64,000 bases of DNA from a virus: IMG/VR virus record IMGVR_UViG_3300021478_000015, positions 1 to 64,000 of that record, one strand, 5' to 3'. The notes beneath the pieces are model-generated. The model saw only the letters and a program-made list of their open reading frames with translations, did no database searches and had not been told where the DNA came from. Made by a program: the position numbers and the translations under genes. Each line of letters begins with the position of its first letter. Position 1 is the stretch's first letter. Below, piece after piece: positions 966 through 52,330 of this stretch.

Positions 966-1067
966 AAGAAGCGATAAGTTCGCGAGCGTCTGTATAACAG
1001 TATAGATAATGATGCGAATGAGGCCGTATAAGGCGGGATGCGAAGCGCCAGTGCTATCTAAGGCGAC

Positions 1068-1096
1068 TTGCTAATCGAAACGGTATCTGCTAAAGT
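1068..1096 (+). promoter_or_regulatory. phage promoter, TTGCTA-N17-TAAAGT
   Basis: TTGCTA (1068-1073), 17 bases ending in TGC, then TAAAGT (1091-1096). It belongs to the family repeated through the window: GAC before the -35 and extended -10 TGCTAnnnT. The bases TCTAAGGCGACTTGCTAA match the element at 2935-2951 almost exactly. It drives the gene at 1149 through a leader with a good ribosome site. Confidence 0.65.
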
Positions 1097-1148
1097 GATG
1101 GCAGAGGGGATCAGACCCTCTCTACAAATCCACCACACAGGAGATCCC

Positions 1149-1499
1149 TTGCCGATCAACATCCACATCACCGATGGCTTGATAACCATCAAGGCTGAGG
1201 ACGGCACCGTCGTCAGCATCGACCGGGTGACCGGGGCGACCGTGCCCAAGCGGGCCAGCTACACCCCCAAGCCCATCAAGGCCACCCTGCACAACTCCTC
1301 TGTCAAGGTCTCGCCTCGCTGGACCCTCAAGGTGGGCGACACCGTCCTGGCCCAGCACAAGAAGGGCGGCCGCAAGTTCCGCACCACGGTGCGGGCCATC
1401 ACCACCGAGAACGACCAGACCTTCGTCCAGGTGGCCGACCCCCGTAACGGGGGCACCTACCTTCTGGCCCTCGACCGCATCGCCCGGACTCGATCATGA
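1149..1499 (+). CDS. hypothetical protein with SH3-like C-terminal half
   Basis: I place the start at TTG 1149, five bases after AGGAG (1139-1143). The TTG at 1068 would lie inside the promoter. The 116 residues form beta-rich segments; the second half (KVGDTVLAQHKKGG and what follows) reads like a small SH3/KOW barrel, suggesting nucleic-acid or protein contact. It is basic overall. The stop overlaps the next ATG (ATGA), so the two are co-translated. No family name can be given. Confidence 0.55.
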   Translation: MPINIHITDGLITIKAEDGTVVSIDRVTGATVPKRASYTPKPIKATLHNSSVKVSPRWTLKVGDTVLAQHKKGGRKFRTTVRAITTENDQTFVQVADPRNGGTYLLALDRIARTRS

Positions 1500-2802: not shown

Positions 2803-2944
2803 CTTTCCCTGCAGGGAAGAGCCCCGGTCGCGCATGTAGACACTGGGGCTCGGCTGGAGGGGTCACTTGGCGACGGAAAAGGCCACGTACAGCGGGAGCC
2901 CCTGAGAGTTCGATCCTCCACCTCCAGCACTTCTCTAAGGTGAC
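2803..2944 (+). other. structured intergenic segment with competing stems
   Basis: GGGGCTC (2845-2851) can pair with GAGCCCC upstream (2819-2825) or downstream (2896-2902), so two folds exclude each other. A perfect 8-bp stem GCTGGAGG/CCTCCAGC (2853-2860, 2921-2928) encloses 76 bases including GTTCGATCC, which resembles a tRNA T-loop, but no anticodon arm forms. A short TTCCC/GGGAA hairpin lies just after the vWA stop. It could be a switch, a decayed tRNA or a processing site. Confidence 0.35.
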
Positions 2945-2973
2945 TTGCTAATGTCCTACCCACCTGCTAGGGT
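2945..2973 (+). promoter_or_regulatory. leaderless-type promoter of the DinG-like gene
   Basis: TTGCTA (2945-2950), 17 bases ending TGC, TAGGGT (2968-2973), then exactly 7 bases to ATG 2981. Transcription should begin at or next to the A of the ATG, and no ribosome site is present. It is the plus-strand member of the minus-strand cassette, including ACC-ACC-AC two codons after the start. Confidence 0.7.
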
Positions 2974-2980
2974 TATAACC

Positions 2981-24010: not shown

Positions 24011-24020
24011 AAGGAAGCTG

Positions 24021-25193: not shown

Positions 25194-25203
25194 AAGCTGG
25201 GTG

Positions 25204-25656: not shown

Positions 25657-25657
25657 T

Positions 25658-28732: not shown

Positions 28733-28760
28733 TTGCGGTCATCGCTTGGAGCGGTATTGT
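28733..28760 (+). promoter_or_regulatory. possible promoter of the packaging genes
   Basis: TTGCGG (28733-28738), 16-base spacer, TATTGT (28755-28760). It fits the phage -10 pattern TAnnGT loosely and gives a leader of about 85 bases before the sigma-like gene. Confidence 0.4.
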
Positions 28761-28852
28761 TGGGTCCGACAGTGCTCTAAGGGGCGCTGTGTCTTCGTTA
28801 CAGAAGGCCCCCGATGGTCAGGCCAGAGAGAGGCAGCGCTCAGTGATCTAGG

Positions 28853-29230: not shown

Positions 29231-29231
29231 T

Positions 29232-30277: not shown

Positions 30278-30279
30278 CT

Positions 30280-31293: not shown

Positions 31294-31298
31294 CGGAG

Positions 31299-40594: not shown

Positions 40595-41632
40595 TCAGGC
40601 GGCGTCTCCGCTCAGCAGGTTCACCACGTCGTCCCAGCGATCCGAGACGCCCTGCAGCAACTCTGAGGCGGTCTCCTCGGCGGCGATGGCCTCGTCCCAG
40701 GCCTCCTCGTTGCGCTCGCCCTCGACATGCTCGCGGATCAGGGCGGACAGGGTGGCCGGGTCCAGGGCGTCAAGCTCCCAGGACTCGTCGCCGTAGAGGC
40801 CGACGTAGCCCTCGGCGCGGGCGTCGGTCATCTTGGCCGGGTTGGGCGGCGGCTGGTACTCGTTCACCTGATCCATGGTCAGAGCGATGCGGCGGATCTC
40901 CAGGTGGCCGCAGGTGTCCTCGTACTCGTCCAGCCGGGTGCGGGCCACCGTCTTGTAGTCGTCGGCGTCGGGGTCGATCTCGCCGTCGCGGATCCACTTG
41001 CGGAGCATGGTGGTCATGCGGCGGATCATGTCCTTGCGGGTGAACAGGCGCAGCCGGTCCTCGATGTCGCGGCTCATGTCGATGCCGGAGGGGTCATGGT
41101 CGCCCAGGTGCAGGATGAGGACGTTTTGGCCCTTCCACAGGTACTCGTTGAGGCGCTGGGCCGCCCCCCAGATCTCGGACTGGCTGGTGTAGCCCCGGCA
41201 GGAGAAGTACGGCACGTCCAGGTCCGGGCAGACCACGTCCAGCACGCCGACCAGGGCATCCTTCTCGATCCAGACCTCGATGCGGGTGGGCTGACTGGCC
41301 CACTTGTCGGTGCGGAACTGCCGGGCGGCGGCCTTGATCAGGTCGGTGGGCTCGTCCCAGTGGGCCAGGGAGCGCAGGTTGCGGGTCCGGTCCACGATGT
41401 AGTCCCAGTCCAGCATCCCGGCCAGGCGGGCGTCGTTGATGATCGAGCCCAGGCGCTTGTACTCGGTCTGCTTGTTGGCGATCAGGCCCCGGCTGACGAA
41501 CTGGTAGTAAAGCTGCCGCAGGGTCAGGTCGTAGCCCTGGGCGGCGTAGTTGGCGCAGATGGCCTCGGCCTGGCCGATGATCTTCAGCGAGCCGGGCGAG
41601 AACTTCTTGGGGGTGTACTCGATCTTGGCCAT
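40595..41632 (-). CDS. Spo11/TopoVI-A-like TOPRIM protein
   Basis: 345 residues from ATG 41632. The N-terminal part has a winged-helix-like segment (LTLRQLYYQFVSRGLIANKQ, about 36-55; SIINDARLAGMLDWDYIVDR) like the CAP domain of TopoVI-A/Spo11. A TOPRIM-like domain follows: RIEVWIEKDALVGVL (about 117-131) with Glu, and VLILHLGDHDPSGIDM (about 174-189) with DxD. The DHDPSG motif is typical of this superfamily. The catalytic Tyr would be one of the Tyr pair in QLYYQF. It may cut or nick DNA for replication or takeover. Its promoter and an 8-codon upstream frame are described separately. Confidence 0.72.
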   Translation of the reverse strand: MAKIEYTPKKFSPGSLKIIGQAEAICANYAAQGYDLTLRQLYYQFVSRGLIANKQTEYKRLGSIINDARLAGMLDWDYIVDRTRNLRSLAHWDEPTDLIKAAARQFRTDKWASQPTRIEVWIEKDALVGVLDVVCPDLDVPYFSCRGYTSQSEIWGAAQRLNEYLWKGQNVLILHLGDHDPSGIDMSRDIEDRLRLFTRKDMIRRMTTMLRKWIRDGEIDPDADDYKTVARTRLDEYEDTCGHLEIRRIALTMDQVNEYQPPPNPAKMTDARAEGYVGLYGDESWELDALDPATLSALIREHVEGERNEEAWDEAIAAEETASELLQGVSDRWDDVVNLLSGDAA

Positions 41633-41665
41633 CAAATGGCCTCGGTGGTGGTGGTTATGGCGGGC

Positions 41666-41694
41666 ACGTTAGCAAACTTTCCTAGAGAGTGCAA
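41666..41694 (-). promoter_or_regulatory. cassette promoter with mutated leaderless start
   Basis: Minus strand: TTGCAC, 17 bases ending TGC, TAACGT. Seven bases on, where ATG lies in sister cassettes, is ATA followed by ACC ACC ACC ACC GAG GCC ATT TGA. Its TGA overlaps ATG 41632 (TGATG). A GAGG ahead of that ATG could serve as ribosome site. So this copy has an 8-codon remnant or leader frame instead of a leaderless gene. Confidence 0.7.
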
Positions 41695-41774
41695 GTCGGG
41701 GTAGGTCCCCTACCCTTGTTGTCAGGTACAGGCCCCTCAAGTGCATAGATCCTTCGAAGCTCCTGAAAGTTAAG

Positions 41775-41800
41775 GGAGCCCCCTCCGAAGAAGGGGCTCC
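41775..41800 (-). terminator. terminator of the ArdC unit
   Basis: Minus strand: GGAGCCCC, ten-base loop, GGGGCTCC (41793-41800 with 41775-41782), then CTTAACTTTC. It lies between the ArdC-type gene and the next cassette promoter. Confidence 0.65.
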
Positions 41801-41830
41801 AGGTCGTCGGTGGGGATCAGCACGGTGGTC

Positions 41831-42889
41831 TCAAGCAGCCACCTCCACGGGGCGCTCCTTGGCCCCCTCGCCGTCTGACTCGCCGTCCTTGGTCCAGCGG
41901 ATGCCCTGGACCCAGTCGGCGGCGTACTGGGCCTGGGAGGCGGCCTGCATGAGCCACTTGGGCTCGCTCTGCAGCTTGGACAGCCAGCCCTGTAGGTAGG
42001 CGGCCGAGTTGTCGATGGTGGAGTTCTCGATCCCGGCGATCCCGCACAGCATGGCGGCGGTCATCTCCGCGGTTAGCTCCTCCTTGGAGTAGCTGGTGTC
42101 CCCGAAGGAGTGCGACTCCATCAGGTCCTTGCGGGCCAGGCGGCTGGCGTGGCCCGTCGAGTGGCCCATCTCATGGAACAGGGTCGAGTAGTAGGCCTCG
42201 GGGGTGGTGAAGGCGGTGGGCTCGGGCATGCCGATGAAGTCCCGGCTGGGCGAGTAGTAGGCCCGGTTGCCGCCGTGGTGGACCTCGACCTCGGTGTAGC
42301 CGTCCGCCAGGGCCTGAGCCGCCTCGATGGCGTCGAACTCGGGGGCATCCTCGGCGGCCTCGGAGGGCTGGAACTTCTTCGGGAGCGTGCCCTGGTGGAC
42401 CTGATCCTGGTTCCAGACGTTGAACTCCTTGGGGAAGCGGATCCGGACCTTGCGGACCTTGCCGGTGGCCTCGTCCTTCTCCTCCTTGACGAAGCTCCCC
42501 CACCAGATGACCTTGGTGCATTTCTCGCCCTTGCGGACCCCGAAGTCGAGCCCCTCGGGATGGACCCAGGAGTTGCCCTCCTTGACCGCCCCGGCCTGGC
42601 GCGCCCACTCGTCGTAGGTGGCCCAGAAGGTGGACTTGTAGCCCTTCTCCAGGGCCTCGCCCAGGAGCAGCCAGAGGTTGATGCCCCGGTAGAGCTTGCC
42701 GGTGGAGACCGAGCGGGGGAACATGGAGCCGCCGTCCGCGGCCTTCCATTCCTGCAGCCAGATCAGCTTCTTGGTCTGCAGCGACAGGGCGCAGATGCGG
42801 TCAACGACCGACTGGTAGAGGTCCTTGCGGGGCTTGGCGGGGGTGACCCGGCCGGACTTGGTGGACTTGGACTTGGTGGTGGTGGCCAT
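41831..42889 (-). CDS. ardC-like: ArdC-type antirestriction protein with zincin-like protease domain
   Basis: 352 residues from ATG 42889, exactly seven bases after the -10 and without ribosome site (leaderless). The N-terminal ssDNA-binding domain shows YQSVVDRICALSLQTKK, LYRGINLWLLLGEAL and a FGVRKGEKCTKVIWW segment, the DUF1738 pattern of ArdC. The C-terminal half has the HEMGH metallopeptidase motif (FHEMGHSTGHASR, about 237-249) and a downstream Glu-rich helix (KEELTAEMTAAML). ArdC proteins protect incoming DNA from restriction. The upstream start (43045) reads through promoter and terminator and is rejected. It starts MATTTK, as the cassette predicts. Confidence 0.85.
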   Translation of the reverse strand: MATTTKSKSTKSGRVTPAKPRKDLYQSVVDRICALSLQTKKLIWLQEWKAADGGSMFPRSVSTGKLYRGINLWLLLGEALEKGYKSTFWATYDEWARQAGAVKEGNSWVHPEGLDFGVRKGEKCTKVIWWGSFVKEEKDEATGKVRKVRIRFPKEFNVWNQDQVHQGTLPKKFQPSEAAEDAPEFDAIEAAQALADGYTEVEVHHGGNRAYYSPSRDFIGMPEPTAFTTPEAYYSTLFHEMGHSTGHASRLARKDLMESHSFGDTSYSKEELTAEMTAAMLCGIAGIENSTIDNSAAYLQGWLSKLQSEPKWLMQAASQAQYAADWVQGIRWTKDGESDGEGAKERPVEVAA

Positions 42890-42896
42890 GGGAAGT

Positions 42897-42925
42897 ACGT
42901 TAGCAGACTTTCTTAGAGGGCGCAA
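42897..42925 (-). promoter_or_regulatory. leaderless cassette promoter (ArdC)
   Basis: Minus strand: TTGCGC, spacer CCTCTAAGAAAGTCTGC, TAACGT, ACTTCCC, ATG. The -10 to ATG distance is 7. The start is followed by GCC ACC ACC ACC. Confidence 0.75.
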
Positions 42926-42944
42926 GTCACCTTTGGCAAGAATG

Positions 42945-42986
42945 GCAAGAAAAGCGAGAGCCCCCGGTTGTAAGTCGGGGGCTCTC
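42945..42986 (-). terminator. intrinsic terminator
   Basis: Minus strand: GAGAGCCCCCG, nine-base loop, CGGGGGCTCTC, then GCTTTTCTT. It ends the 43.0-43.4 kb transcript just upstream of the ArdC promoter. Confidence 0.7.
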
Positions 42987-43362
42987 ATTCCAGGTTGTGC
43001 TCGGTCCTGCGGTCCTGCCTGACGTGACCCGGAGCTTGGTTGCATCGCAGCTTGGTGGGCCAGGAGGCCCTCCCACTCTCTCCGGCAGGGTTAGCGTCCC
43101 TGCGTACTCTGTGGTTTTGATTGTCAGCGGTCAGTTCCCTGGGCTCAAGCCGTTCGCCCGAGGGCTCCCCGGATTCGACTACGCACGCCCTGGTGACCCG
43201 ACACTTAGCCCCGAGGGGCACTTCAGTGCCGGTGCCACTTCGAGTCGCGGTACCGGGGATGTAAGAGGGATGGGACGGGTGCGGAGGCTGGCCACTGGGC
43301 GGGCCTCCCTTCTGACTGCGGTGCGGGTTACGCCATAGCTTCCTTTCTCGATCGGTGAGTAC
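42945..43362 (-). ncRNA. candidate small RNA or orphan transcript ending in a terminator
   Basis: A cassette promoter (43370-43398) fires into 370 bases with no good gene and stops at a perfect 11-bp stem (42956-42966 with 42976-42986) followed by GCTTTTCTTG on this strand. Near the 5' end a good site AAAGGAAG precedes ATG GCG TAA, a two-codon frame. The open frame of about 120 codons crossing the region has no start at the expected place and no coding look. Small hairpins occur (GGCAC-TGAA-GTGCC, GGGCC-TCCT-GGCCC). It could be a regulatory RNA or a decayed leaderless gene. Confidence 0.35.
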
Positions 43363-43369
43363 AGGAAGC

Positions 43370-43398
43370 ACGTTAGCAAGGATTCCTAGAGAAGTCAA
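43370..43398 (-). promoter_or_regulatory. cassette promoter without a gene
   Basis: Minus strand: TTGACT, spacer TCTCTAGGAATCCTTGC, TAACGT. Seven bases on it reads GTACTCACC, so the start codon and the ACCACC element are missing. It is otherwise as good as the sister promoters. Confidence 0.65.
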
Positions 43399-43399
43399 G

Positions 43400-43579
43400 T
43401 CACCTGCGGCGGGACTTGGAGTTCTCCCGGCGGGGATTACCGATGTGCCAGCAGGAGCACCAGGCGCACCGGTAGCTCCGGGTGGCCCAGCCTCGCGCCC
43501 GTGCTGCCTTGGCCACGTCGTTGGCTACCTCCCGCGTGGCGTACTGGTGCTTGCCGGTGACGCAGTCGCTGCCCTTCAT
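43400..43579 (-). CDS. small zinc-binding protein
   Basis: 59 residues from the minus-strand ATG at 43579. Pattern: a Cys near the start (SDCVTGKHQYATREVANDVA), a basic helix, and YRCAWCSCWHIGN (about 39-51), the C-x2-C...WHxG signature of a common small actinophage zinc protein. The tail is very basic (RRENSKSRRR). The longer frame from 43663 overlaps the next gene and is rejected. Last gene of the 44945-43400 operon. Confidence 0.6.
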   Translation of the reverse strand: MKGSDCVTGKHQYATREVANDVAKAARARGWATRSYRCAWCSCWHIGNPRRENSKSRRR

Positions 43580-43583
43580 GGGC

Positions 43584-43919
43584 TCACGCCTGGTGCAGGA
43601 GGGCCTGCTCCTTGGTGGTGAGCAGCTTCTCGATGTCATGCTCCCAGATGGACTCGCAGACACTGGCCAGGGTGCCGTCCTTTAACCGCCAGCGGACGGT
43701 GTAGGAATACTCCCCGGCCTCCTGGTGGATGTGGACGGTGACGATCTCGGCGTGGCGGGGAGCCCGGCCATGGCGGCCTGGGAGCTTCCTGAAGGCCCGC
43801 ACGGTGTCGCCTTCGTGGTACTTCGAGCCCGCCACCTGAGCGGCGTACAGCGCCTCCTGGGCGGCCTCCAGAGCCTCCTGGCACCGGGTCACCTCAGCGG
43901 CTAGCTCCTTGATGGTCAT
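43584..43919 (-). CDS. hypothetical protein
   Basis: 111 residues. A helical start (VTRCQEALEAAQEALYAAQ) runs into a beta-rich domain with FRKLPGRHGRAPRHAEIVTV and a later YTVRWRLKDGT, like an SH3-type barrel. Overlaps the upstream gene by one base. No family recognised. Confidence 0.5.
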   Translation of the reverse strand: MTIKELAAEVTRCQEALEAAQEALYAAQVAGSKYHEGDTVRAFRKLPGRHGRAPRHAEIVTVHIHQEAGEYSYTVRWRLKDGTLASVCESIWEHDIEKLLTTKEQALLHQA

Positions 43920-44503
43920 CAGAAGTACAGGCCTTTCGGGTTCACGTCGGTGACCATGCCCAGCACGTCGATGGGGATCATGGCCCTCAGCTTGGGGGTG
44001 GCGTCCATGGCGGTGAAGATCTCCCTAGCAGGCCAACCGCCGACCGGGGCGTGGGCCAAGACTCTCCAGCCCTCCTGATCGAGCCCTGTGGGGCTCGCCA
44101 AGCGGAGAAAACGGCTCGCCTCACGTCCTGGGTCTACGGCAAGCTCTATGACCTCTGAGACGGGCTCAGGGGGCCGTCCCCACGCCCAGATGGATCCGGA
44201 GCCGTGAGGGACGTGGGGACGGTCGGACGCCCTGGCCATCAGGATGGTAGGGGCGCTGGTGTCGTAGCTCCACAGCGTGGCGTCCACTACCGTCACCTCG
44301 GGGTCGTAGGGGTCGCCCAGGACGGCCCAGGAGTGTTGCGAGCCCACGCCGCGGCAGCCTCCGCGGGCCACTCGGGCTCCCTCGGGCAGCAGACCGGAGC
44401 GGACGATGGCCAGGCTGACCGAGTGGCACTGGTGTGCCCAGTGGTCCTTGGGGATGTCGATGGCAGCCTCGACCGCCTCGACGGTGGGTGCGGTGAAGGT
44501 CAC
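43919..44503 (-). CDS. cysteine-protease/transglutaminase-like protein
   Basis: 194 residues. A possible Cys-His-Asp triad is spaced as in papain/transglutaminase folds: HWAHQCHSVSLAIV (Cys about 26), VGSQHSWAVLGD (His about 57) and VTVVDATLWSY (Asp about 73). The HSW...VVDAT order is typical of transglutaminase-like and related peptidases. The rest has no motif. It might modify host proteins early in infection. No experimental analog is claimed. Coupled by overlap to neighbours in the 44945-43400 operon. Confidence 0.5.
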   Translation of the reverse strand: MTFTAPTVEAVEAAIDIPKDHWAHQCHSVSLAIVRSGLLPEGARVARGGCRGVGSQHSWAVLGDPYDPEVTVVDATLWSYDTSAPTILMARASDRPHVPHGSGSIWAWGRPPEPVSEVIELAVDPGREASRFLRLASPTGLDQEGWRVLAHAPVGGWPAREIFTAMDATPKLRAMIPIDVLGMVTDVNPKGLYF

Positions 44504-44709
44504 TTGTACATCTCCTTATGGCGGGGGCAGTAGTCGAAGCCGTCCACCTTCCAGCCTGCGGCCTTGGCCGCTTTGCGGATGGCGGGCCGGGACTGGATGC
44601 CGTCGTAGGCGAAGGCGGCGGTGCAGGACTTCATGTCCCGCAGGGGATCGCCGCCTGCAGGCAGGTCGGCCCCGTCGCAGGTCACGGTCATTTGCTGGCG
44701 GACGCTCAT
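44500..44709 (-). CDS. small zinc-site protein
   Basis: 69 residues with VTCDG near the start, an RPAIRKAAKAAGWKVDG helix-turn and DYCPRHK at the end. Cys...C-x2-H is a split zinc site shared by small actinophage proteins. Overlaps both neighbours by 4 bases. Confidence 0.5.
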   Translation of the reverse strand: MSVRQQMTVTCDGADLPAGGDPLRDMKSCTAAFAYDGIQSRPAIRKAAKAAGWKVDGFDYCPRHKEMYK

Positions 44710-44945
44710 GGCTTGGCCACCGCATCCCGGCCCGTGTACCAGCCGATGGGACGCTGGTCAGCCCCAGGGTTGGGGCCAGCGTGGAAGTGGTTGGGGGTGT
44801 AGCGATGGTGCTGGTTGGCGTGCCAGCGGCTCATCTCGGTGAAGGTCCAGCTATGGCGCTTGACCGAGGACCGGGCCGCCTGGGTGCCGTGCATCTCTTG
44901 GATGTGATCGAACAGCACCTGCTTGGGGGTGGTGGTCTGTGGCAT
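44706..44945 (-). CDS. small histidine-rich protein, leaderless
   Basis: 79 residues from ATG 44945, seven bases after the -10 of a cassette promoter, starting MPQTTTPKQ. It has QVLFDHIQEMHGTQ, a central WTFTEMSRWHANQHHRYTPN and HFHAG, so nine or so histidines that could bind metal. First gene of its operon. No family recognised. Confidence 0.6.
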   Translation of the reverse strand: MPQTTTPKQVLFDHIQEMHGTQAARSSVKRHSWTFTEMSRWHANQHHRYTPNHFHAGPNPGADQRPIGWYTGRDAVAKP

Positions 44946-44952
44946 GGCAAGC

Positions 44953-44981
44953 ACCTTAGCAGGAATCCTTAGAGGGCGCAA
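44953..44981 (-). promoter_or_regulatory. leaderless cassette promoter
   Basis: Minus strand: TTGCGC, spacer CCTCTAAGGATTCCTGC, TAAGGT, GCTTGCC, ATG. Start followed by CCA CAG ACC ACC ACC. Confidence 0.75.
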
Positions 44982-44992
44982 GTCGCCCAGGA

Positions 44993-46279
44993 CTACCAGC
45001 CCCAGGGGGCGATGGGCTCCCAGCCCAGCTTGGCCGTCACCTTGTTGATGGCGTCCTGGATGGCGTGCTGGGTCGCGTCTTCGCGGGCCTCGGGATGGCC
45101 CTGGTCGGCCACCCAGTCAGAGCCCTCACAGACACGGCCTTCGAGGTCAGCCCGCTGGAGCTTCCCGGTGCTGATCTCGCTGAGTATCAGCGTGACCATG
45201 CGGTGGACGGTAACGCCGCCCATGTGAGAGGGCATCTGATAAGGGGGAATCTCGCTCTTGGCCGGGCACTTTGATTTCGGTTGTGTCTTAGTAGTGGTCA
45301 TGGTGGACATCTTATCAAACTTCCTTATAGTAGCGGCGGTAGTTGTGGGGATTTGTGTCTTTGTTGTGAGGAAGGGGTCCAGGAGATCGCGGAAGTCTTC
45401 GTTCGTAGTGAGATCCCATATCGGAAACTTAATATCCTCGTTGTACTTCCGGTATAACCGGGCTGCTTCTAAATAATCAGGATCGCACCACTCACCCTCA
45501 TGCACCAGTCCGGTGATGCGGAAGTCACTATTCTCAAGGTCTGGGTAGTCCATCCAGCCCTTGGCCGGGGTAACGAGATGTCTGGGTGTCCTATGCCGCT
45601 CTTCCGGGCTGGCGGCGTCGTACCAGGCCTGCCATTCAGGTGTCCTTCTAAACCTGGAGTCCCTACTACTAGTATCCTTCCAGATCTTTCGTTGCTGTGC
45701 GTATCGTTGCACCCATCTCTTTATCTCAGTATCAGGCCAATCCTTGATTGCAGCCTGGGTTAACGCAGGTGGTACGTTGATCACATACATCAGCTTTGGT
45801 ATCTTGTGACCGGCTGCATAGTCTCTTGCTATTGCTTCGCTGAACTGAGTATGGGGGACTACTAGTGTCTGATCTGTTATCAGGCTGGATCCGACTCTTA
45901 TATTGGTGGATCCGAGTTCTCCATATCCACCGTAGCAAGGATGAATCAGTATCTTGGCCTTAGGGGGTCCTCCACTCACGTTTCTCACGTATTCAGGCGG
46001 TAGTAGCCTGTGGTGTAAGCGCTTGCTCTTGCCCTCGTCGTAGTTTCTGATCGTGGCTGGCCCATATACTTCAGCTATGCAATGCTCTCCTGTCTGTTGA
46101 GTCATGTCCGTCAACAGAGGATCGACAATGGATGTCACGATTTCCCACCAGGGCCAGCAGTTCGTGTTGGGTATGTACGATCCTGAGCCCTGACTGCCGT
46201 TCAGTAGCTGGCGGGAATCGATCACTGATCCATCGGTCAGGGTCATGGGGCCGCCGATGAGGATTATGGTGATGCTCAT
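44993..46279 (-). CDS. fusion: unknown paralog joined in frame to a second small gene
   Basis: 428 residues from ATG 46279. The first 310 or so match the upstream neighbour (46276-47067) segment by segment: TIILIGG, LTDGSVIDSRQL, NCWPWWEIVTSIVDPLL, EAARLYRKYNEDIKFPIWDL and NEDFRDLLDPFL. The neighbour stops three residues after DPFL, while this copy runs on through a linker into MSTMTTTKTQPKSKCPAKSE and a separate 100-residue domain. That second part begins at ATG 45301 behind a decayed cassette promoter, so it was once, or still is, its own gene. The first part's function is unknown. A 130-residue extra segment in the middle (about 190-240) is missing from the neighbour. Confidence 0.6.
   Translation of the reverse strand: MSITIILIGGPMTLTDGSVIDSRQLLNGSQGSGSYIPNTNCWPWWEIVTSIVDPLLTDMTQQTGEHCIAEVYGPATIRNYDEGKSKRLHHRLLPPEYVRNVSGGPPKAKILIHPCYGGYGELGSTNIRVGSSLITDQTLVVPHTQFSEAIARDYAAGHKIPKLMYVINVPPALTQAAIKDWPDTEIKRWVQRYAQQRKIWKDTSSRDSRFRRTPEWQAWYDAASPEERHRTPRHLVTPAKGWMDYPDLENSDFRITGLVHEGEWCDPDYLEAARLYRKYNEDIKFPIWDLTTNEDFRDLLDPFLTTKTQIPTTTAATIRKFDKMSTMTTTKTQPKSKCPAKSEIPPYQMPSHMGGVTVHRMVTLILSEISTGKLQRADLEGRVCEGSDWVADQGHPEAREDATQHAIQDAINKVTAKLGWEPIAPWGW
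45309..45337 (-). promoter_or_regulatory. decayed cassette promoter inside the fused gene
   Basis: Minus strand: GCCGCT in place of the -35, spacer ACTATAAGGAAGTTTGA, TAAGAT, then seven bases to ATG 45301 and ACC ACT ACT. The spacer and -10 are conserved, the -35 is lost, and the region is now read through in frame. Confidence 0.5.
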
Positions 46280-47067
46280 GTCGCCACCAGGAAGGGATCC
46301 AGGAGATCGCGGAAGTCTTCGTTCGTAGCGAGATCCCATATCGGGAACTTGATGTCCTCGTTGTGCTCCAGGTACCGCCGGGCTGCCTCCAGGTAGCAAG
46401 GGTCACACCACTTGCCACCCTTGACAAGACCTGTGATGCTGAAGTCACCATCCTCAGTGAATAGATCGCTGTTAGGAGATGCTTTAGTTTGAGGATGTTG
46501 ATTCTGGCGGTTCCAGCGATGTTCGCTGAACTGGTTGTGCGGAAGGATTATTATTTGCGCTGAATCAAAGCCTCTGATGTCTTGATTGTAATATGAGCGA
46601 ATCTGTATTCTCACATCACGCTTATACTTGGGTGAGCGTTGAGGATAGTACTCTATATCTGGGTTGGATGAGAGTAGGAGTTGGTTCAATCTAGAGTACT
46701 TGGCTAAGGCTATCCTATAAGGTCCTTCAATGATAGGCCTAATAGTGGGGATGCTTGATCTTAGGAGGGTTTCTAGATTTCTTCTTCTTGGCTTACCATT
46801 GCTAAACTCCATAGTCCACAGCGGGCAATCCTTGATCTCAGCTAGGGAGTGATCTCCGATCTGAGTTTCGAAGTCCTTTTGTCCGAAGCCTTGAAGTAAT
46901 GGATTGACTATTGAAATCACTGTTTCCCACCATGACCAACAGTTCGTATGTACTCTCATACTCGGGTATGTATACGGTAGTTGTCTAGAGTCAATGGTAG
47001 ATCCATCGGATAGGGTTATGAGACCACCGATGAGAATGATGGTGGTAGGCTCCTTAGCTAGCGACAT
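46276..47067 (-). CDS. unknown protein, tandem paralog of the next gene
   Basis: 263 residues from the minus-strand ATG at 47067 (in-frame start MSLAKEPTTIILIGG). It shares with the following gene TIILIGG, LSDGSTIDSRQL, NCWSWWETVISIVNPLL, the PHNQFSEH segment, a KWCDPCYLEAARRYLEHNED stretch and NEDFRDLLDPFL. No catalytic motif is seen. Its base composition is far more AT-rich than the rest of the phage, so it may be recently acquired or under relaxed codon selection. Stop and next start overlap (ATGA). It overlaps the helicase stop by 14 bases. Confidence 0.6.
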   Translation of the reverse strand: MSLAKEPTTIILIGGLITLSDGSTIDSRQLPYTYPSMRVHTNCWSWWETVISIVNPLLQGFGQKDFETQIGDHSLAEIKDCPLWTMEFSNGKPRRRNLETLLRSSIPTIRPIIEGPYRIALAKYSRLNQLLLSSNPDIEYYPQRSPKYKRDVRIQIRSYYNQDIRGFDSAQIIILPHNQFSEHRWNRQNQHPQTKASPNSDLFTEDGDFSITGLVKGGKWCDPCYLEAARRYLEHNEDIKFPIWDLATNEDFRDLLDPFLVAT

Positions 47068-48949
47068 GGTATTGATCCTGGTAGGCAAGGAGTCTTTCTC
47101 TAAGTCTTTTGTTGCGTGAAGCTGCCAGAGCAAGAGTCGTAGCATCGACGGTTACTAGCTTGCCACGTTGTCTTTGATCTTCGATGTACAACTCGGCGCA
47201 CTCGATGAGCTTGACGGTGCCATATCCCCCTTGGGTGTCATAGGCGTCTCCTAGCTCAGCCACGGTGCCCAGGGGCTCGAATCGGACTCTCGGCTTAGGA
47301 GCACCCCGGACCTTGACTACCGGGGGATTAGCAGGCTCACCCTCGATCACGGTGAGGGGTGGTAACAGAGGGACCTCTCGTCTTATCCGTTCGGCCATGG
47401 AGATCAGGTCGGGATCGGCGGGCATGTAGATCCGGCCGATGTTGGTCGGGTCGTTGGGATCGATTCGCATCACCCGGCCCACGATCTGGCGGAAAGCCAG
47501 CTTGGTCTTGGTATTGGTCAGGTAGACCACGGCTCGCAGACGGCGGATGTCGATGCCCTCCGAGATCATGTTGACGGCCACCAGCCAGCGCTTGCTGGCA
47601 TGGTGGGCCTTGAACTGGCGGATGACATCGGCGGCATTTTGATCGTCAGGGTTGGTGTCCTTGGACCAGGCCTTCATCGGTTTGATACCGGTGATCTTCT
47701 CTAGGCGCTTGGCGATGCGTTCGGCGTGATCACAGTCGTAACACACCACTAATCCGGCAGCATCAGGATCACCATTGTCGCGGATATCGATCAGCCAATC
47801 ATTGGCTTTGTGTATTAGCTGATCGGTGATGGTCCCATCCCCGATGCAATCCAGGGCGGTAAGCAGACGGCGTTTCTTTCCGAGTGTGCTTACATCCGGG
47901 TCGTTAAAGTCGAGGGTGTGCTCGGTGCCGTCCTCGTTGCGGAAGGTGGTCGATCCCTGGGTAGTGAGGAACTGCACCCGGCGGCAGGCCGGAGGTTTGT
48001 CCCGAAGAGCATGGCCATAGGTGTAGCGATAGAGCGGTTTGGCAGCACCTCCGGTATGGGGCACGAAGGCAATCTTCTTGGCGTCGGTACGGAACGGGGT
48101 CCCTGACATCGACAGGATGCACCGGGCTCCCTGGGCGAAGGCGGTCTGGGCGGCCAGGCCCCAGGTCTTGTCGGTGGCGACGTGGTGGACCTCATCGAAG
48201 ATGACCAGGGTGTTGTGGTGAACGTTGGTGGTCGTCCGGCCCTTTTTCTCGATACTGATGTCAGTGGCGTGGGCCAGGAAGGTGTCAGTCATTCTGGCCA
48301 GGGATTGGTAGCTGAGGACCGCTCCCACAGCGTTGTCTGGGATGGCCCTGGTGGGCCTCCAGATCGCCCCTCTGGTGCTAACCAGGGGCAGGGTGGGGTT
48401 GTCGGGCTCTCGCTTGCTGGCGGCTAGCAGCCAGCCGTCTGCGATGCCGATGGTGTGAACCACCACCAACACCCGCGAGATCTCCCCAGCCTTGATCAGA
48501 TGGTGGGCTACCTCCAGGGCCAGGCGGGTCTTGCCTGCACCGGGGCAGGCCTCGATCAGTACCGGGTCGTTCAGGATACGGGGTAGGATCTTGTCCAGAG
48601 CCTGCTCCTGCCAGTGCCGGAGCCTGTCGTCCCCGGCTGCCAGCAGGTCCAGGTTGAACTGCTTGGCCAGGGTCTCGTAGGTCTGGTTGCCCTTGCGGGC
48701 GTTGCAATGACGGCACAGGGCCATGAGGTTGGAGTAGACGGTGCGGCCACCCTTGCTCCAGGGGAAGACGTGGTCGCCGTCGAAGAGGTCACGGGGAAGC
48801 TCGCGCTGGCAGGGCGGGCACTTCCTGCCTTGGGCCTCCCACTTGCGGATCACCTCGGCGCGGCTGAACCTCCGGTGAGGATCCCGTTGATCCAGGGGTA
48901 CGTCAGGGATCTTGGGCTCGCCCAGCAGGACGGCTCCGGTGAGGTTCAT
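47054..48949 (-). CDS. HNH nuclease fused to superfamily 2 helicase
   Basis: 631 residues. Residues about 44-88 are an HNH nuclease: KCPPCQRELPRDLFDGDHVF, then NLMALCRHCNARKGN, with two Cys pairs and the DH/N/H catalytic set. A helicase follows: Walker A CPGAGKT (about 135-141), DEVH (about 252-255), SGTPFRTD (about 282-289), and SEGIDIRRLRAVVYL with QIVGRVMRID as motifs V and VI. A C-terminal 100-residue region has no motif. Fusions of a nuclease to an SF2 translocase are typical of restriction-like or defence systems. It may destroy host or rival DNA. Coupled to a basic small protein upstream. Confidence 0.85.
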   Translation of the reverse strand: MNLTGAVLLGEPKIPDVPLDQRDPHRRFSRAEVIRKWEAQGRKCPPCQRELPRDLFDGDHVFPWSKGGRTVYSNLMALCRHCNARKGNQTYETLAKQFNLDLLAAGDDRLRHWQEQALDKILPRILNDPVLIEACPGAGKTRLALEVAHHLIKAGEISRVLVVVHTIGIADGWLLAASKREPDNPTLPLVSTRGAIWRPTRAIPDNAVGAVLSYQSLARMTDTFLAHATDISIEKKGRTTTNVHHNTLVIFDEVHHVATDKTWGLAAQTAFAQGARCILSMSGTPFRTDAKKIAFVPHTGGAAKPLYRYTYGHALRDKPPACRRVQFLTTQGSTTFRNEDGTEHTLDFNDPDVSTLGKKRRLLTALDCIGDGTITDQLIHKANDWLIDIRDNGDPDAAGLVVCYDCDHAERIAKRLEKITGIKPMKAWSKDTNPDDQNAADVIRQFKAHHASKRWLVAVNMISEGIDIRRLRAVVYLTNTKTKLAFRQIVGRVMRIDPNDPTNIGRIYMPADPDLISMAERIRREVPLLPPLTVIEGEPANPPVVKVRGAPKPRVRFEPLGTVAELGDAYDTQGGYGTVKLIECAELYIEDQRQRGKLVTVDATTLALAASRNKRLRERLLAYQDQYHVAS

Positions 48950-49089
48950 GACTCCACCTGGACCCGGCCCCGGCAGGCGCGCTTAGCGGCCACCTTCTTC
49001 TTGGACTGGACGGTCTTGGCCCGCAGGGGGACGTGGGGGTTCATGACCCGCGCCCCAGGGCGGGCGGAGGTGCGTCTGGGCTTGGCCAT
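48946..49089 (-). CDS. small basic protein
   Basis: 47 residues, MAKPRRTSARPGARVMNPHV and onward, with a KKKVAAKRACRGR core. Start at minus-strand ATG 49089; ATGA overlaps on both sides. It could bind nucleic acid and partner the HNH-helicase. It is below the length usually called as a gene, so is easily missed. Confidence 0.5.
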   Translation of the reverse strand: MAKPRRTSARPGARVMNPHVPLRAKTVQSKKKVAAKRACRGRVQVES

Positions 49090-49340
49090 CAGACCTCCAC
49101 CTCCACGGTGACCTTGCCACCCTCGATGGCGACCAGCTTGGCCCCCAACCGGCGCACACGGGCCAACACGGCCCCGGAGGAGGAGTGGGCGTAGCCCACG
49201 ATCTCAGCCCCGGTGAAGGTCTTCTCGAAGCCCACGCCCCGGCCGTTCCGGACGATCATCTCGCCCTTGGCGTAGTGGGCCTTGACCAAAGCGAACTTGG
49301 CCCCGGAGCGGGTCTTGATGGTGACGGTGGTGGTGGTCAT
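49089..49340 (-). CDS. small hypothetical protein, leaderless
   Basis: 83 residues from ATG 49340, seven bases after a cassette -10, starting MTTTTVTIKTRSG. It is a compact beta-rich domain (KFALVKAHYAKGEMIVRNGR, then GFEKTFTGAEIVGYAHSSSG) with a Gly/Ser turn. No cysteines. It heads the HNH-helicase operon. No family recognised. Confidence 0.6.
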   Translation of the reverse strand: MTTTTVTIKTRSGAKFALVKAHYAKGEMIVRNGRGVGFEKTFTGAEIVGYAHSSSGAVLARVRRLGAKLVAIEGGKVTVEVEV

Positions 49341-49347
49341 GGGAAGT

Positions 49348-49376
49348 ACCTTAGCAAACTTTCTTAGAGGGTGCAA
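49348..49376 (-). promoter_or_regulatory. leaderless cassette promoter (HNH-helicase operon)
   Basis: Minus strand: TTGCAC, spacer CCTCTAAGAAAGTTTGC, TAAGGT, ACTTCCC, ATG. Start followed by ACC ACC ACC ACC. Confidence 0.75.
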
Positions 49377-49390
49377 GTCACCCCGGACGC

Positions 49391-49418
49391 GAAGAAGGAG
49401 GTCCCTTAGAGGACCTCC
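49391..49418 (-). terminator. terminator hairpin
   Basis: Minus strand: GGAGGTCC, six-base loop, GGACCTCC, then TTCTTC (49418-49391). It closes the 50584-49449 operon just before the next cassette promoter. Confidence 0.65.
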
Positions 49419-49448
49419 CTCTTGCTTCCTGCCGCCCCTGCAGGAGAC

Positions 49449-49694
49449 TTAGATCTTGACGGGCTGCTTCACCTCCCGGACGAACCGGCGCACCGGCCCG
49501 GCCTGGGGGTAGGTGTGGTAGATCCCCACCGAGGTCACCTCGGGGTGCTCGGCCAGGAAGGTCTCGGCAAAGCCCAGGGCGGACTGCTCGGCGGCGGCCT
49601 GGCGCTTACCGGCTGAGGCCTGGATCATCAGGCTGCGCCGGTCGCCCTGGCGGGGCTCGATCTCGTATTCGTGCTTGTCACTGGGGGTACGCAT
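49449..49694 (-). CDS. small hypothetical protein
   Basis: 81 residues, with AAGGAAA before the ATG. It is mainly helical (AAEQSALGFAETFLAEHP) with a beta-like end (SVGIYHTYPQAGPVRRFVRE). No family recognised. Last gene of its operon, followed by a terminator. Confidence 0.55.
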   Translation of the reverse strand: MRTPSDKHEYEIEPRQGDRRSLMIQASAGKRQAAAEQSALGFAETFLAEHPEVTSVGIYHTYPQAGPVRRFVREVKQPVKI

Positions 49695-49719
49695 GGCGTT
49701 TTCCTTACTTACTAGTAGG

Positions 49720-50094
49720 TCAGATGATGGTGTCTTTGTTCACGGTCCCGCAGCGGCTGCAGGTCCGGTATTCGTAGGTCCCACCGGCCACCACGTAGTC
49801 ATGAGGAAGATGGGCCGGGGTCCGGCCGCAGACCGGGTCGTACTCGATGGTGCGAGCCTCGCCCAGGTGCTCCCAGCCGATGATGTCCAGGATGTGCCGG
49901 TCGGTCTGGGTGTAGAAGTCATGGACGACCATGCCCTGGCCATCACAGGGCTCTGTCTGCTCCCAGGGCTCACTCTGCTCCGCCCGGACGCTCAGGAAGC
50001 CTCCACAGGCCTCACAGCGGGGCTGGACGGCCTCCTGGCCCTCGTAGTCAGGCTCCCTGGTCGCCCAGGCGTCGTAGCCGCGCAGGCCTACCAT
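49720..50094 (-). CDS. zinc-ribbon hypothetical protein
   Basis: 124 residues from the minus-strand ATG at 50094; a longer in-frame reading overlaps two other genes and is rejected. Cys pairs RCEACGGFL (about 26-34) and CSRCGTVN near the C-terminus form a zinc ribbon; CDGQG and CGRTP add two more. A long polar middle contains GMVVHDFYTQTDRHILDIIG. Function unknown. Confidence 0.55.
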   Translation of the reverse strand: MVGLRGYDAWATREPDYEGQEAVQPRCEACGGFLSVRAEQSEPWEQTEPCDGQGMVVHDFYTQTDRHILDIIGWEHLGEARTIEYDPVCGRTPAHLPHDYVVAGGTYEYRTCSRCGTVNKDTII

Positions 50095-50276
50095 CCCCGG
50101 TTCTCCTTGCGAAGCTCGGCCCGCCGCTCGGCGGCATCTTCCTCCTGGTCGGCCATCCAGGCATTGAACTGGTCCTGGGCCTCGATCGAGTCGGTGTCCA
50201 GGTCGGCTGGGGTGATCTCCTCGGCCCAGCGGGTGAAGGCCTCCTCGTAGGCCTCGTCGTAGGGGGATGCCCTCAT
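50088..50276 (-). CDS. small acidic helical protein
   Basis: 62 residues, strongly acidic and helical (DEAYEEAFTRWAEEITPADL then DQFNAWMADQEEDAAERRAE). Overlaps both neighbours. Acidic mini-proteins can mimic DNA and block host enzymes, but nothing specific proves that here. Confidence 0.5.
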   Translation of the reverse strand: MRASPYDEAYEEAFTRWAEEITPADLDTDSIEAQDQFNAWMADQEEDAAERRAELRKENRGW

Positions 50277-50584
50277 GACTGCACCTCCAGGTACGCCTCG
50301 ATGCTGGACAGGGACACCTTGTGGCCACGGGCGATCTGCTGACCGGCCTGGCGGCCTGAGTGGGCTAGGCCCCGGTAGGATTCACTGGCCGAGACGCGGC
50401 CCTGGGCATCGATGCTGAACTCCCAGAAGTTTGAGCCCTGAGGCATGTGGTTGGCGATGGTGACGTGGCGGTAGCTGCCGTAGAAGCGCTCCTCGACCAC
50501 AAAGTGGCGGCGGTAGGCGGCGGCGATGATGGCTTCGACCCGGCGCACTGACCGGGAGCGAACTGGTGTGGTGGTCTCAGGCAT
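50273..50584 (-). CDS. hypothetical protein, leaderless
   Basis: 103 residues from ATG 50584, seven bases after a cassette -10, starting MPETTTPVRSRSVRR. The middle is a beta-helix mix (VEERFYGSYRHVTIANHMPQ) and ends in a helical part (SSIEAYLEVQS). No family recognised. First gene of its operon. Confidence 0.6.
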   Translation of the reverse strand: MPETTTPVRSRSVRRVEAIIAAAYRRHFVVEERFYGSYRHVTIANHMPQGSNFWEFSIDAQGRVSASESYRGLAHSGRQAGQQIARGHKVSLSSIEAYLEVQS

Positions 50585-50591
50585 GACTGGT

Positions 50592-50620
50592 ACATTAGCA
50601 GATTCGCTTAGAGAGGGCAA
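50592..50620 (-). promoter_or_regulatory. leaderless cassette promoter
   Basis: Minus strand: TTGCCC, spacer TCTCTAAGCGAATCTGC, TAATGT, ACCAGTC, ATG. Start followed by CCT GAG ACC ACC ACA. Confidence 0.75.
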
Positions 50621-50621
50621 G

Positions 50622-50783
50622 TCAGTCCACCACCAGGAGCCAGAGCAGGTAGCCGACCGTGGCCCAGAACGTCAGGCACAGGACCAGCAGGAGTAGCAGG
50701 AATCCGAGGTCGAGCAGGTACTGCCGCCGCCGGACGCGGCTGACGATGCGTTGTGCCTCCCGGACCGGAGTGCGCCGCCTCAC
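50622..50783 (-). CDS. small membrane protein
   Basis: 53 residues from GTG 50783. A very basic start (MRRRTPVREAQRIVSRVRRR) is followed by a hydrophobic stretch, LGFLLLLLVLCLTFWATVG, and a second short one (YLLWLLVVD). The charge pattern predicts the N-terminus stays in the cytoplasm. It is short enough to be missed by usual gene calls; another frame over the same bases has no such features. Role could be envelope stress, exclusion or lysis support. Confidence 0.6.
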   Translation of the reverse strand: MRRRTPVREAQRIVSRVRRRQYLLDLGFLLLLLVLCLTFWATVGYLLWLLVVD

Positions 50784-50802
50784 CTGATCGAGCCTGGCAC
50801 AT

Positions 50803-51141
50803 TCAGGCGACCTTGACCTTTGCCTTTGTGCGCCTTCTCACTAGCAGGCTGCGATTGATCATCTCGGCTCGCATCTTCGGTCTCATCGGCTCACCGAAGC
50901 TGGAGATGGTGGTGTATTGCTCGGGATAGCGATAGTAGCGCTGGAATACCTTCATGTCGTTGCCGATGTAATCGAAGCGCTCGGTGGTGCAACGGGTGCA
51001 ACGAAGAGCCAGGCAAGCTTGGGCGGCTCGGAAGAGATCGCTGTTCACCTCGGCGGTGGGGTTGTCATCCCAGGAGTGTCCGATGGTTCGGCAGATGACA
51101 TAAGTATCCTGTAGATCCGAGATCTCCATACGGATTGCCAT
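50803..51141 (-). CDS. hypothetical protein with cysteine site
   Basis: 112 residues. YVICRTIGHSWDDN (about 14-27) and LALRCTRCTTERFDYIG (about 44-60) give three cysteines and a His for one zinc. The C-terminal third is basic (RSLLVRRRTKAKVKVA). Overlaps the upstream gene by one base. Resembles small actinophage zinc proteins of unknown role. Confidence 0.55.
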   Translation of the reverse strand: MAIRMEISDLQDTYVICRTIGHSWDDNPTAEVNSDLFRAAQACLALRCTRCTTERFDYIGNDMKVFQRYYRYPEQYTTISSFGEPMRPKMRAEMINRSLLVRRRTKAKVKVA

Positions 51142-51416
51142 CAGCGTTCCATCCTTTCAGCTAGCCACATATGACCATCCTGATCCTCCAACACAATAAA
51201 GGGCAACACCTTGAACTTTGGCGCGGTCGGTTTCGGAGGGTTGAACACCTCCACCGCCTGGCTGTTGTTAGTCGGCCGTGGAGGCATGCCTTTCTTACGC
51301 AACCGGCCGGTCTTACCTCCCCAGATGCCGTGCGCTTTTCGCATGTGATCGCCCCAGAGATAGACAGAGGCATAGCTTTTGCCGCAGTGTGGGCACTTCT
51401 CTTTGACTCCGGCCAT
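51141..51416 (-). CDS. single C2H2 zinc finger protein
   Basis: 91 residues from the minus-strand ATG at 51416. One finger, CPHCGKSYASVYLWGDHMRK (start about residue 7; C-x2-C, then H-x4-H), is followed by a basic region (GKTGRLRKKGMPPRP) and a beta-rich end (FKVLPFIVLEDQDGHMWLAE). Probably binds nucleic acid. Translationally coupled (TGATG). Confidence 0.6.
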   Translation of the reverse strand: MAGVKEKCPHCGKSYASVYLWGDHMRKAHGIWGGKTGRLRKKGMPPRPTNNSQAVEVFNPPKPTAPKFKVLPFIVLEDQDGHMWLAERMER

Positions 51417-52228
51417 CACACCGGGCTTTCATCCACGATGGACAGGTCGCTGCGAACCTCGTCGCGCCACTCATCGATCTGATCGGAGGTGGGCTCATCG
51501 GGCTCGACCCGGCCACTGCCGTCGCAGGTGTCGCAGGCGATCTCCGCCTCGGAGTTCTCGGCCTCCTCGTCGTAGTCGGGGTTCTCGATCACGCCGGTCC
51601 CGCCGCACTCGGAGCACTCGTCTTCCTCGGGCTCGGGGAAGTCCGGGATGGTGGCGTTCTCGATCTCGTCCGCCCAGGAGTCCAGTTGCTCGGAGATGTC
51701 CCGAAGCTCCTGGGACTGCTCCGTCTCATGCTGGAAGCCGGACTCGATGTTGTCGGCCGACTCGCCCTTCTCCTGGGCGATCTCGCGCACTGCCTCGGCC
51801 GCCTCGTTGAGGGCTGTCTGGGCATCATCCTCGGATTCGGCCGAGTCGATGGCCTCGGAGAAGTTGTGGCTGACCTCGGCCAGGCGGGCGCTCAGGCTGG
51901 AGGAGTACTCCCAGACCTGCCAGGAGGGGCAGTTGGCGCAGCGGTACATGGTCCGGCCGCCGTAGGGGCCGGAGCGGGGGCTGATGTGCTTGTAGGGGCT
52001 GCCCACCGTGATCTCGACGCCGCAGGCATCGCACTTGCGATTGGGCAGAGGCTTGGTCTTGTCAGCTACCGTGACCGACAGGAACACCGGCCGACCGGTC
52101 TTGGTCTGCTTCTGCTGGCCGTTCTTACCCATGACCGGAGTCTGCTTCTGCTGACCCGTCTCAGGGTCGATGACAGGGACTTGCTCATACCGCTGTTGAG
52201 CGGCCTTGACGTGGGTGATGCGAGCCAT
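51416..52228 (-). CDS. zinc-finger and coiled-coil protein
   Basis: 270 residues. After a basic N-terminal region come CDACGVEI and CANCPSW (about 65-100), a zinc ribbon, then a long helical coiled-coil segment (about 105-190), and a DnaJ-like pair CSECGGTG / CDTCDGSG (about 201-237) with an acidic tail. Widely seen layout in actinophages, role unknown. AAGGAG lies before the ATG; the promoter is the divergent cassette at 52259-52288. First gene of the 52228-50622 operon. Confidence 0.65.
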   Translation of the reverse strand: MARITHVKAAQQRYEQVPVIDPETGQQKQTPVMGKNGQQKQTKTGRPVFLSVTVADKTKPLPNRKCDACGVEITVGSPYKHISPRSGPYGGRTMYRCANCPSWQVWEYSSSLSARLAEVSHNFSEAIDSAESEDDAQTALNEAAEAVREIAQEKGESADNIESGFQHETEQSQELRDISEQLDSWADEIENATIPDFPEPEEDECSECGGTGVIENPDYDEEAENSEAEIACDTCDGSGRVEPDEPTSDQIDEWRDEVRSDLSIVDESPV

Positions 52229-52258
52229 GAAAAACTCCTTGTTGTGGTGGTTGTTCCC

Positions 52259-52288
52259 ACCCTACACGAAAAGGTGGTGTGTTGGCAA
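52259..52288 (-). promoter_or_regulatory. cassette-related promoter with a leader
   Basis: Minus strand: TTGCCA, 18-base spacer, TAGGGT. The expected transcript begins GGGAACAACCACCACAAC and reaches an AAGGAG ribosome site before ATG 52228. So the ACCACCAC element is kept near the 5' end even though this gene has a leader. Confidence 0.65.
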
Positions 52289-52330
52289 GTCGGCTTAGAG
52301 AGACTCCGGGTCGAGAGGGTCCCTGTCCAG

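Follow-up and report, generated by a model that had tools for sequence, protein, structure and literature searches.

What makes a leaderless mRNA efficient beyond its 5' RTG start codon (ATG or GTG) is an open question, and in mycobacteria no downstream sequence has been found to matter (PMC4633059). Leaderless transcripts of mycobacteria begin with RTG at position +1, and their coupled small open reading frames (ORFs) are conserved between orthologs in placement but not in peptide (PMC4633059). In E. coli, CA-repeat or ACA enhancers are reported to increase translation whether the mRNA has a leader or is leaderless (Martin-Farmer and Janssen 1999, as relayed in PMC9031893; PMC3879156), and leaderless upstream ORFs of bacteria have been described as regulators of the gene that follows (Beck et al.; Canestrari et al., as relayed in PMC9031893). 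Among mycobacteriophages, cluster O carries the leaderless SigA promoters PL1, PR2 and PL2 (PMC4351075), and cluster K carries SAS/ESAS, short start-site repeats at a subset of genes that are conserved between phages and were proposed to act in translation initiation (PMC3203893). Here we describe a repeated cassette of promoter, predicted leaderless start and ACC-ACC codons in a window of 64,000 nucleotides (nt), the first 64 kb of the 156,983-bp virus record IMGVR_UViG_3300021478_000015 (G000), which has a G+C (GC) content of 62%.

The cassette shares features with each of these systems. As in mycobacterial leaderless transcripts, a -10 element precedes an RTG predicted to be +1, no Shine-Dalgarno (SD) sequence is present, and the stop of a short ORF may overlap the next start; no enrichment downstream was seen in the mycobacterial study, among either natural or selected sequences, whereas the present phages show a strong link to ACC-ACC and a single repeated promoter (PMC4633059). 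As with the CA-repeat enhancers, C/A-rich sequence lies at or just behind the start codon, but those enhancers are designed repeats or belong to single host genes, whereas ACC-ACC is natural and recurrent in a multi-copy phage cassette. The cluster O promoters are present in few copies, and the accessible part of that report mentions no shared spacer element or downstream motif (PMC4351075). The 13-bp SAS, GGGATAGGAGCCC, is located upstream of the start codon and can pair in part with 16S ribosomal RNA (PMC3203893), in contrast to a cassette that joins a promoter and a leaderless start to A/C-rich codons downstream; SAS occurs in none of the listed cassettes (the window copies and the class-I set defined below). 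Like the leaderless upstream ORFs outlined in PMC9031893, some cassettes place a small leaderless ORF (mini-ORF) before a gene, but, judged against that outline, the phage mini-ORFs encode no Cys-rich attenuator peptide and resemble loading ramps with overlapping stop and start. In the open-licence literature we found no description of one repeated cassette that joins leaderless promoter, start repeats, CA enhancer and coupled small ORF. An earlier note on this window had held that no phage system of this kind was described; this stands for the combination, while each ingredient has precedents. The parts are thus known singly, and the repeated combination, with a downstream motif tied to leaderless starts, looks new.

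A repeated promoter and its predicted leaderless starts

The earlier note had proposed a repeated leaderless layout, and the four minus-strand copies with starts at 42889, 44945, 49340 and 50584 read exactly as it described: GACTTGC, CTCTAAG, the extended -10 TGCTAANGT, 7 nt, ATG and ACCACCAC. In this class-I layout CTCTAAG lies within the 17-bp spacer, six bases (N6) from TGCTAANGT. The pattern TGCTAANGT-N6-CATG-N6-ACCACCAC, with at most three mismatches, has six matches in the window against 0.00 expected from shuffles. Five copies in the window were used to build a promoter-only matrix of 41 bp, which reaches up to the start and leaves out ACC. Scanning the whole record with it gave twelve sites with scores of 32-62, the next score being 14.5 and the shuffle maximum 9.9. 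Six sites lie on the minus strand of the window (41697, 42928, 43401, 44984, 49379 and 50623), among them the class-I promoter at 43391, the sixth in the window, which the earlier note had overlooked; the other six lie on the plus strand at 75-87 kb (75512, 76832, 79393, 80363, 84109 and 87089). ACC-ACC stands behind 11 of the twelve sites, the exception being 43391, which has no start codon at +1.

The same promoter was found in relatives. We refer to this phage as lineage A; lineages B (contigs G002 and G006) and C (G003 and G007) come from other samples, and most of their length can be aligned with G000 at about 75% DNA identity, B and C being about 85% identical to each other. Across the three lineages, at least 18 gene families together carry 31 class-I copies. 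All but one of the 31 have a start codon (or ATA) at +1, and ACC-ACC follows in frame in 25 of these 30. The test suggested in the earlier note, a matrix followed by a scan of relatives, was positive, and the relatives keep ACC-ACC. Two further copies, orthologs of 80405, hold ACCACCAC in another frame: in G000 80405 and G002 2487 the start is offset by one base and the motif is read as Asp-His-His, possibly the result of an old frameshift in the cassette head. In all class-I copies having RTG, TGNTANNNT lies 5-9 nt upstream of it, and from this distance to the -10 (typically 7 nt) RTG is predicted to be the first base of the transcript. The ACC-ACC-AC element of the earlier note survives as an ACC-ACC core, usually followed by A, with a variable third codon. 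Its position ranges from about +4 to about +12, yet the frame with the start is kept.

Comparison of orthologs bears on whether ACC-ACC is simply inherited with the promoter. One ancestral promoter-plus-start block might have been spread by recombination, with ACC-ACC kept by descent and without function; the -35/-10 block is clearly a single family, and the copies at 42930 and 49381 are 93% identical across 57 bp, ACC codons included. We consider such hitch-hiking quite unlikely. Orthologs keep the promoter and ACC-ACC while divergence is seen in the 7-nt spacer ahead of ATG and in the codons that follow ACC-ACC; for example, the ArdC-like gene keeps its cassette in lineages B and C with different N-terminal linkers. 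ACC-ACC is also found behind leaderless starts with other promoters (2981, 83177 and G002 4971), distant phages with an unrelated promoter family show this association too, and an SD leader holds ACCACCAC unchanged between lineages (both described below). Genes 44503 and 49089 are operon-internal and cassette-free in lineage A but fused to a cassette in lineage B, with the heads MTTSRRSR and MATTRK, and orthologs without a cassette lack the MTTT head; the head is therefore an addition by the cassette and not a trait of the protein family.

Four class-I cassettes lead into a mini-ORF of 8-14 codons, and all four mini-ORFs end overlapping the start of the next gene (roughly p = 0.004, as 0.25 to the fourth power). 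None of the genes behind 75552, 76875 and lineage B 66458 has a convincing SD sequence. The genes behind mini-ORFs 75552 and B 66458 are orthologs (62% identity), and the overlap is kept although the mini-ORF peptides are unrelated. The fourth, 41658, reads ATA-ACC-ACC-ACC-ACC-GAG-GCC-ATT-TGA with its stop over the topoisomerase ATG at 41632, ahead of which GAGG can serve as a putative SD sequence.

ACC-ACC as nucleotide signal or protein sequence

Leaderless starts were defined solely by an extended -10 at leaderless distance, and starts with a strong SD sequence were excluded. In G000, ACC-ACC occurs in codons 2-8 of 8/8 predicted leaderless starts and of 8/179 others (p = 4e-10); since copies within and between phages are related, this and the other p-values are optimistic and overstate the surprise. 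Chance was considered as the source of the cassette and ACC pattern, and its standing was lowered. The first 20 nt have a predicted unpaired probability of 0.69 at leaderless starts and 0.52 at other starts (p = 3e-7).

The base composition raises the alternative that any unstructured A/C-rich stretch suffices and that ACC-ACC is only the commonest G-free codon pair at high GC, with no specific signal. The A+C fraction behind the start is 0.88 for leaderless and 0.59 for other starts of G000. In larger sets it is 0.79-0.90 against about 0.6 over codons 2-6, and A/C richness persists at most leaderless starts that lack ACC-ACC. CA-rich enhancers in E. coli likewise need no strict motif or position (PMC3879156, PMC9031893). 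On the other hand, the first two threonine (Thr) codons are ACC in 57/58 cases, and not the equally G-free ACT or ACA, while the third is freer (15/20; p = 0.004), and exactly ACC-ACC has been chosen repeatedly in distant families. We regard the alternative as possible but doubtful; between a specific preference and the commonest G-free solution, the data lean to some specificity (57/58).

The distant family is represented by contigs G009 and G010, which have only few remote homologs in common with G000 and possess a repeated promoter of their own, GTTGAAYGAC..TGCTAnCATCAC, unrelated to class I. Along G009 22957-33648 (-) and G010 21997-32431 (+), loci L255-L262, GTTGAAYGAC-TGCTAnCATCACY is followed by RTG ACC ACC at many small genes. 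G009 was found through two ACC matches, and none of the five G010 ACC-ACC starts counted was a seed; G010 alone has ACC-ACC at 5/11 leaderless and 4/156 other starts (p = 5e-5). In this family the first 20 nt are again predicted to be more often unpaired (0.70 against 0.52, p = 2.5e-6). The idea that the ACC element is specific to the class-I promoter, also implied by the earlier note, does not hold in view of these phages and the other-promoter starts named above. As a collection-wide control, contigs with GC > 0.5 and ORFs of at least 45 codons were searched across the whole viral collection, with the present phage group excluded, and leaderless ATGACCACCAC gave 10 distinct starts with the 7-nt spacer against 2 with a 14-nt control spacer. 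At L217 (G011), positions 2307 and 5227, two leaderless ATGACCACCACA starts have the -10 inside an inverted repeat (TGACACTNNTGCTAAAGTGTCA in one of them), which looks like an operator.

Selection on the protein would offer a different account, with the MTTT(K) head acting as an N-terminal tag in N-end processing, solubility or localisation. Nearly every copy has ACC-ACC in frame, and Thr makes up 43% of codons 2-7 at leaderless starts against 12% elsewhere. This account is nevertheless very unlikely in our judgement. ACC accounts for 64/69 of the Thr codons behind leaderless starts and for 237/328 of those at other starts (p = 8e-5). The figures for the distant family are 41/49 and 90/148 (p = 0.002), and there the skew beyond genome usage is clearest, long ORFs using ACC for just 47% of their Thr codons (p = 1.6e-7). 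The mini-ORFs MTTKLSNPS, MTTTHNQAC and MTTMLVLLIEIRIL terminate before the gene; ACC-ACC is common among mini-ORFs, and their peptides show no likeness beyond it. The motif is out of frame in the 80405 orthologs, and cassette-free orthologs lack the head. The orthologs of 52228 in lineages A, B and C all carry an unchanged ACCACCAC in their non-coding leader, where it follows the -10 by 7-9 nt and precedes an SD sequence. The skewed Thr choice and this invariant leader motif suggest that the ACC-ACC signal lies at least partly in nucleotides, and together with the unrelated mini-ORF peptides they bear out the earlier proposal of a signal in the RNA and not in protein sequence alone. Despite the optimistic p-values, these four lines (SD leader, out-of-frame orthologs, codon choice and mini-ORFs) differ in kind.

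The leader of 52228 could also point to transcription, since ACCACCAC sits there at the expected +1 despite SD-led translation, and CTCTAAG in the class-I spacer suggests extra DNA-binding specificity. ACC-ACC would then act in promoter escape, in start-site choice or as the binding site of a phage regulator or antitermination factor, independently of leaderless translation. Such a role seems unlikely. The position of ACC-ACC shifts while its frame is kept, it tracks leaderless starts across unrelated promoters, and it is missing behind class-I promoter 43391, seemingly a promoter of a non-coding RNA, which fits a role of ACC in translation.

Conserved RNA-like element and neighbouring features

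Promoter 43391 probably drives a conserved element of about 230 nt, found in all three lineages (G006 38728-38972 (-) and G007 16437-16672 (+) besides the window copy in Table 1), and its transcript seems to be the only class-I transcript of this phage that does not start a leaderless ORF. The element is not an open frame in one of the three lineages. Its predicted multi-stem fold includes 10 pairs with two-sided changes, and compensatory changes occur in the terminal terminator hairpin. No match was found in Rfam or named phages, and the element looks like an undescribed structured phage RNA.

Table 1 Cassettes, promoters and related features (G000 coordinates unless another contig is named; leaderless starts are predicted)
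Feature	Position	Strand	Details
Class-I cassette	49326..49379	-	GACTTGC / CTCTAAG / TGCTAAGGT; leaderless ATG 49340; ACCACCACCACC; MTTTTV..., 83 amino acids
Class-I cassette	50568..50623	-	leaderless ATG 50584; MPETTTP, 103 amino acids
Class-I cassette	44928..44984	-	leaderless ATG 44945; MPQTTTP, 79 amino acids
Class-I cassette	42875..42928	-	leaderless ATG 42889; MATTTK; heads ArdC-like anti-restriction gene 41831-42889
Class-I promoter and decayed mini-ORF	41632..41697	-	ATA at start position, then ACCACCACCACC; topoisomerase gene ATG 41632
Class-I promoter without RTG or ACC at +1	43363..43401 (43391)	-	matrix site; precedes conserved RNA-like element
Conserved structured element, probably non-coding	42945..43195	-	ends in intrinsic terminator
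Class-II promoter (CTCTAAG-N2-GACTTGC ... TAGGGT)	52228..52300	-	non-coding SD leader, ACCACCAC at expected 5' end
Class-II promoter and leaderless start of DinG-like helicase	2934..2998	+	ATG 2981, MQTTTP
Diverged class-II-like promoter, weak member	1057..1149	+	SD leader with TCCACCACA before SD; TTG start 1149
Weak or decayed leaderless-like start	45290..45325	-	ATG 45301; ACC-ACT-ACT; no GACTTGC
Mini-ORF	75552		MTTKLSNPS; ATGA overlap with next start
Mini-ORF	76875		MTTTHNQAC; TAATG overlap with next start
Mini-ORF	66458 (lineage B, G006)		MTTMLVLLIEIRIL; TGATG overlap with next start
Mini-ORF	41658	-	same layout, ATA start; decayed; topoisomerase start preceded by GAGG

In class II, CTCTAAG lies just upstream of GACTTG and not inside the spacer (window 2934 and 52300; G006 42949; G007 13376; G002 4924). 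CTCTAAG may be an operator, or a second contact of sigma factor or an activator. The DinG-like gene at 2981 was correctly listed among the leaderless starts, with ATGCAGACCACCAC, and the spacer element is absent there; its orthologs in lineages B and C carry class-I cassettes and MTTT heads, the gene starting with MQTTTPAPHGVTNADVEA in A, MTTTPHSVTYADVEA in C and MTTTQSHSVTYADVEA in B. For 41632 and 52228, which had been taken as copies lacking a leaderless start, the promoter of the former and the ACCACCAC of the latter are present, but 52228 proved to have an SD leader and 41632 to lie behind a decayed mini-ORF. The supposed decayed copy at 45301 lacks GACTTGC and reads ACC-ACT-ACT, and is not a real ACCACCAC copy. 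Beside it, in a poorly coding stretch, a 170-bp direct repeat occupies 45369-45536 and 46289-46456 (81% identical). In the long leader of the TTG-started gene (window 1057-1149; G002 about 73700-73855; G003 about 22060-22220), an A/C-rich TCCACCACA box lies right before the SD sequence in all three lineages, and the leaders of B and C contain a large G+C-rich inverted repeat.

The phage is a large tailed phage with a likely actinobacterial host, since sheaths of Mycobacterium, Gordonia and Rhodococcus myoviruses share about 35% identity with its tail sheath. The search for a host through ribonucleotide reductase returned only remote homologs from Thermoanaerobacter, Clostridia and Deltaproteobacteria and identified no host, and a near-identity search of the region against named phages at the DNA level gave no match. 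The window has no tRNA or tmRNA, and nothing in it matches Rfam at the gathering score. The named Rhodococcus phage Finch, related through its tail sheath, has essentially no such leaderless starts, the two candidates being doubtful and without ACC-ACC.

A candidate expression cassette and its meaning

The sequence itself shows the architecture and how it recurs, the fact that a given gene has the cassette in some phages and lacks it in others, the ACC bias and the lower predicted structure, and from these we infer the 5' ends, ribosome loading, an enhancer effect and mini-ORF coupling. We give somewhat better than even credence to a portable leaderless-expression cassette, whose A/C-rich, G-poor and unstructured 5' end would aid ribosome entry much as CA repeats do. 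A sigma-70-type promoter, made up of TTGC, a 17-bp spacer that contains CTCTAAG and the extended -10 TGCTAANGT, would place the 5' end of the transcript on AUG or GUG or no more than 1-2 bases away. The next 6-20 bases would be A/C-rich, nearly G-free and unstructured, mostly ACC-ACC-A. Such a bare, open 5' end would let the ribosome load without an SD sequence, in the manner of the E. coli CA-repeat enhancers. The cassette may be used in two ways, either fused in frame to a gene, which yields the MTTT head, or as a leaderless mini-ORF with its stop over the start of the gene, on which terminating ribosomes would re-initiate. An open 5' end that eases the entry of ribosomes would accommodate both the promoter 43391 without ACC and the 52228 leader with ACCACCAC, and the latter, being SD-led, fits a wider role of the RNA 5' end.

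Several observations weigh against this proposal, besides the relatedness of the copies. Selection from randomised libraries in M. smegmatis found RTG at +1 to be sufficient, with no downstream motif (PMC4633059). The near-universal placement of ACC-ACC in frame is also compatible with selection on codons or peptides. ACC-ACC is absent from three class-I copies with a start at +1, in two gene families (G006 79337; G006 41337 and its G007 ortholog 14997), and is therefore not obligatory. Because 21-28% of all stop codons in G000 overlap an ATG anyway, the stop/start overlap of the four mini-ORFs is only suggestive of coupling; moreover, 13/33 short upstream ORFs overlap the next start, some of them probably being tails of unpredicted genes.

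The stronger claim, that ACC-ACC after a 5'-terminal AUG or GUG is a genuine convergent signal for leaderless initiation in phages of high-GC, probably actinobacterial, hosts, carried by a mobile cassette that can be fused to any gene or work by way of a disposable leaderless mini-ORF passing ribosomes on to the gene at the stop/start overlap, is one we put forward tentatively and hold at less than even confidence. The two very distant phage groups, with ACC-ACC at the leaderless starts of unrelated genes, provide natural replicates together with a synonymous-codon test. Should the element work, high-GC hosts would gain a compact promoter-plus-start part, and gene finders would be helped to call leaderless starts in phage genomes. 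Phages would then also spread translation-ready cassettes, mini-ORF adaptors included, through their accessory genes. The independent appearance of the ACC habit in other phages suggests that a rule at the sequence level may govern how translation begins where a conventional ribosome-binding site is missing.

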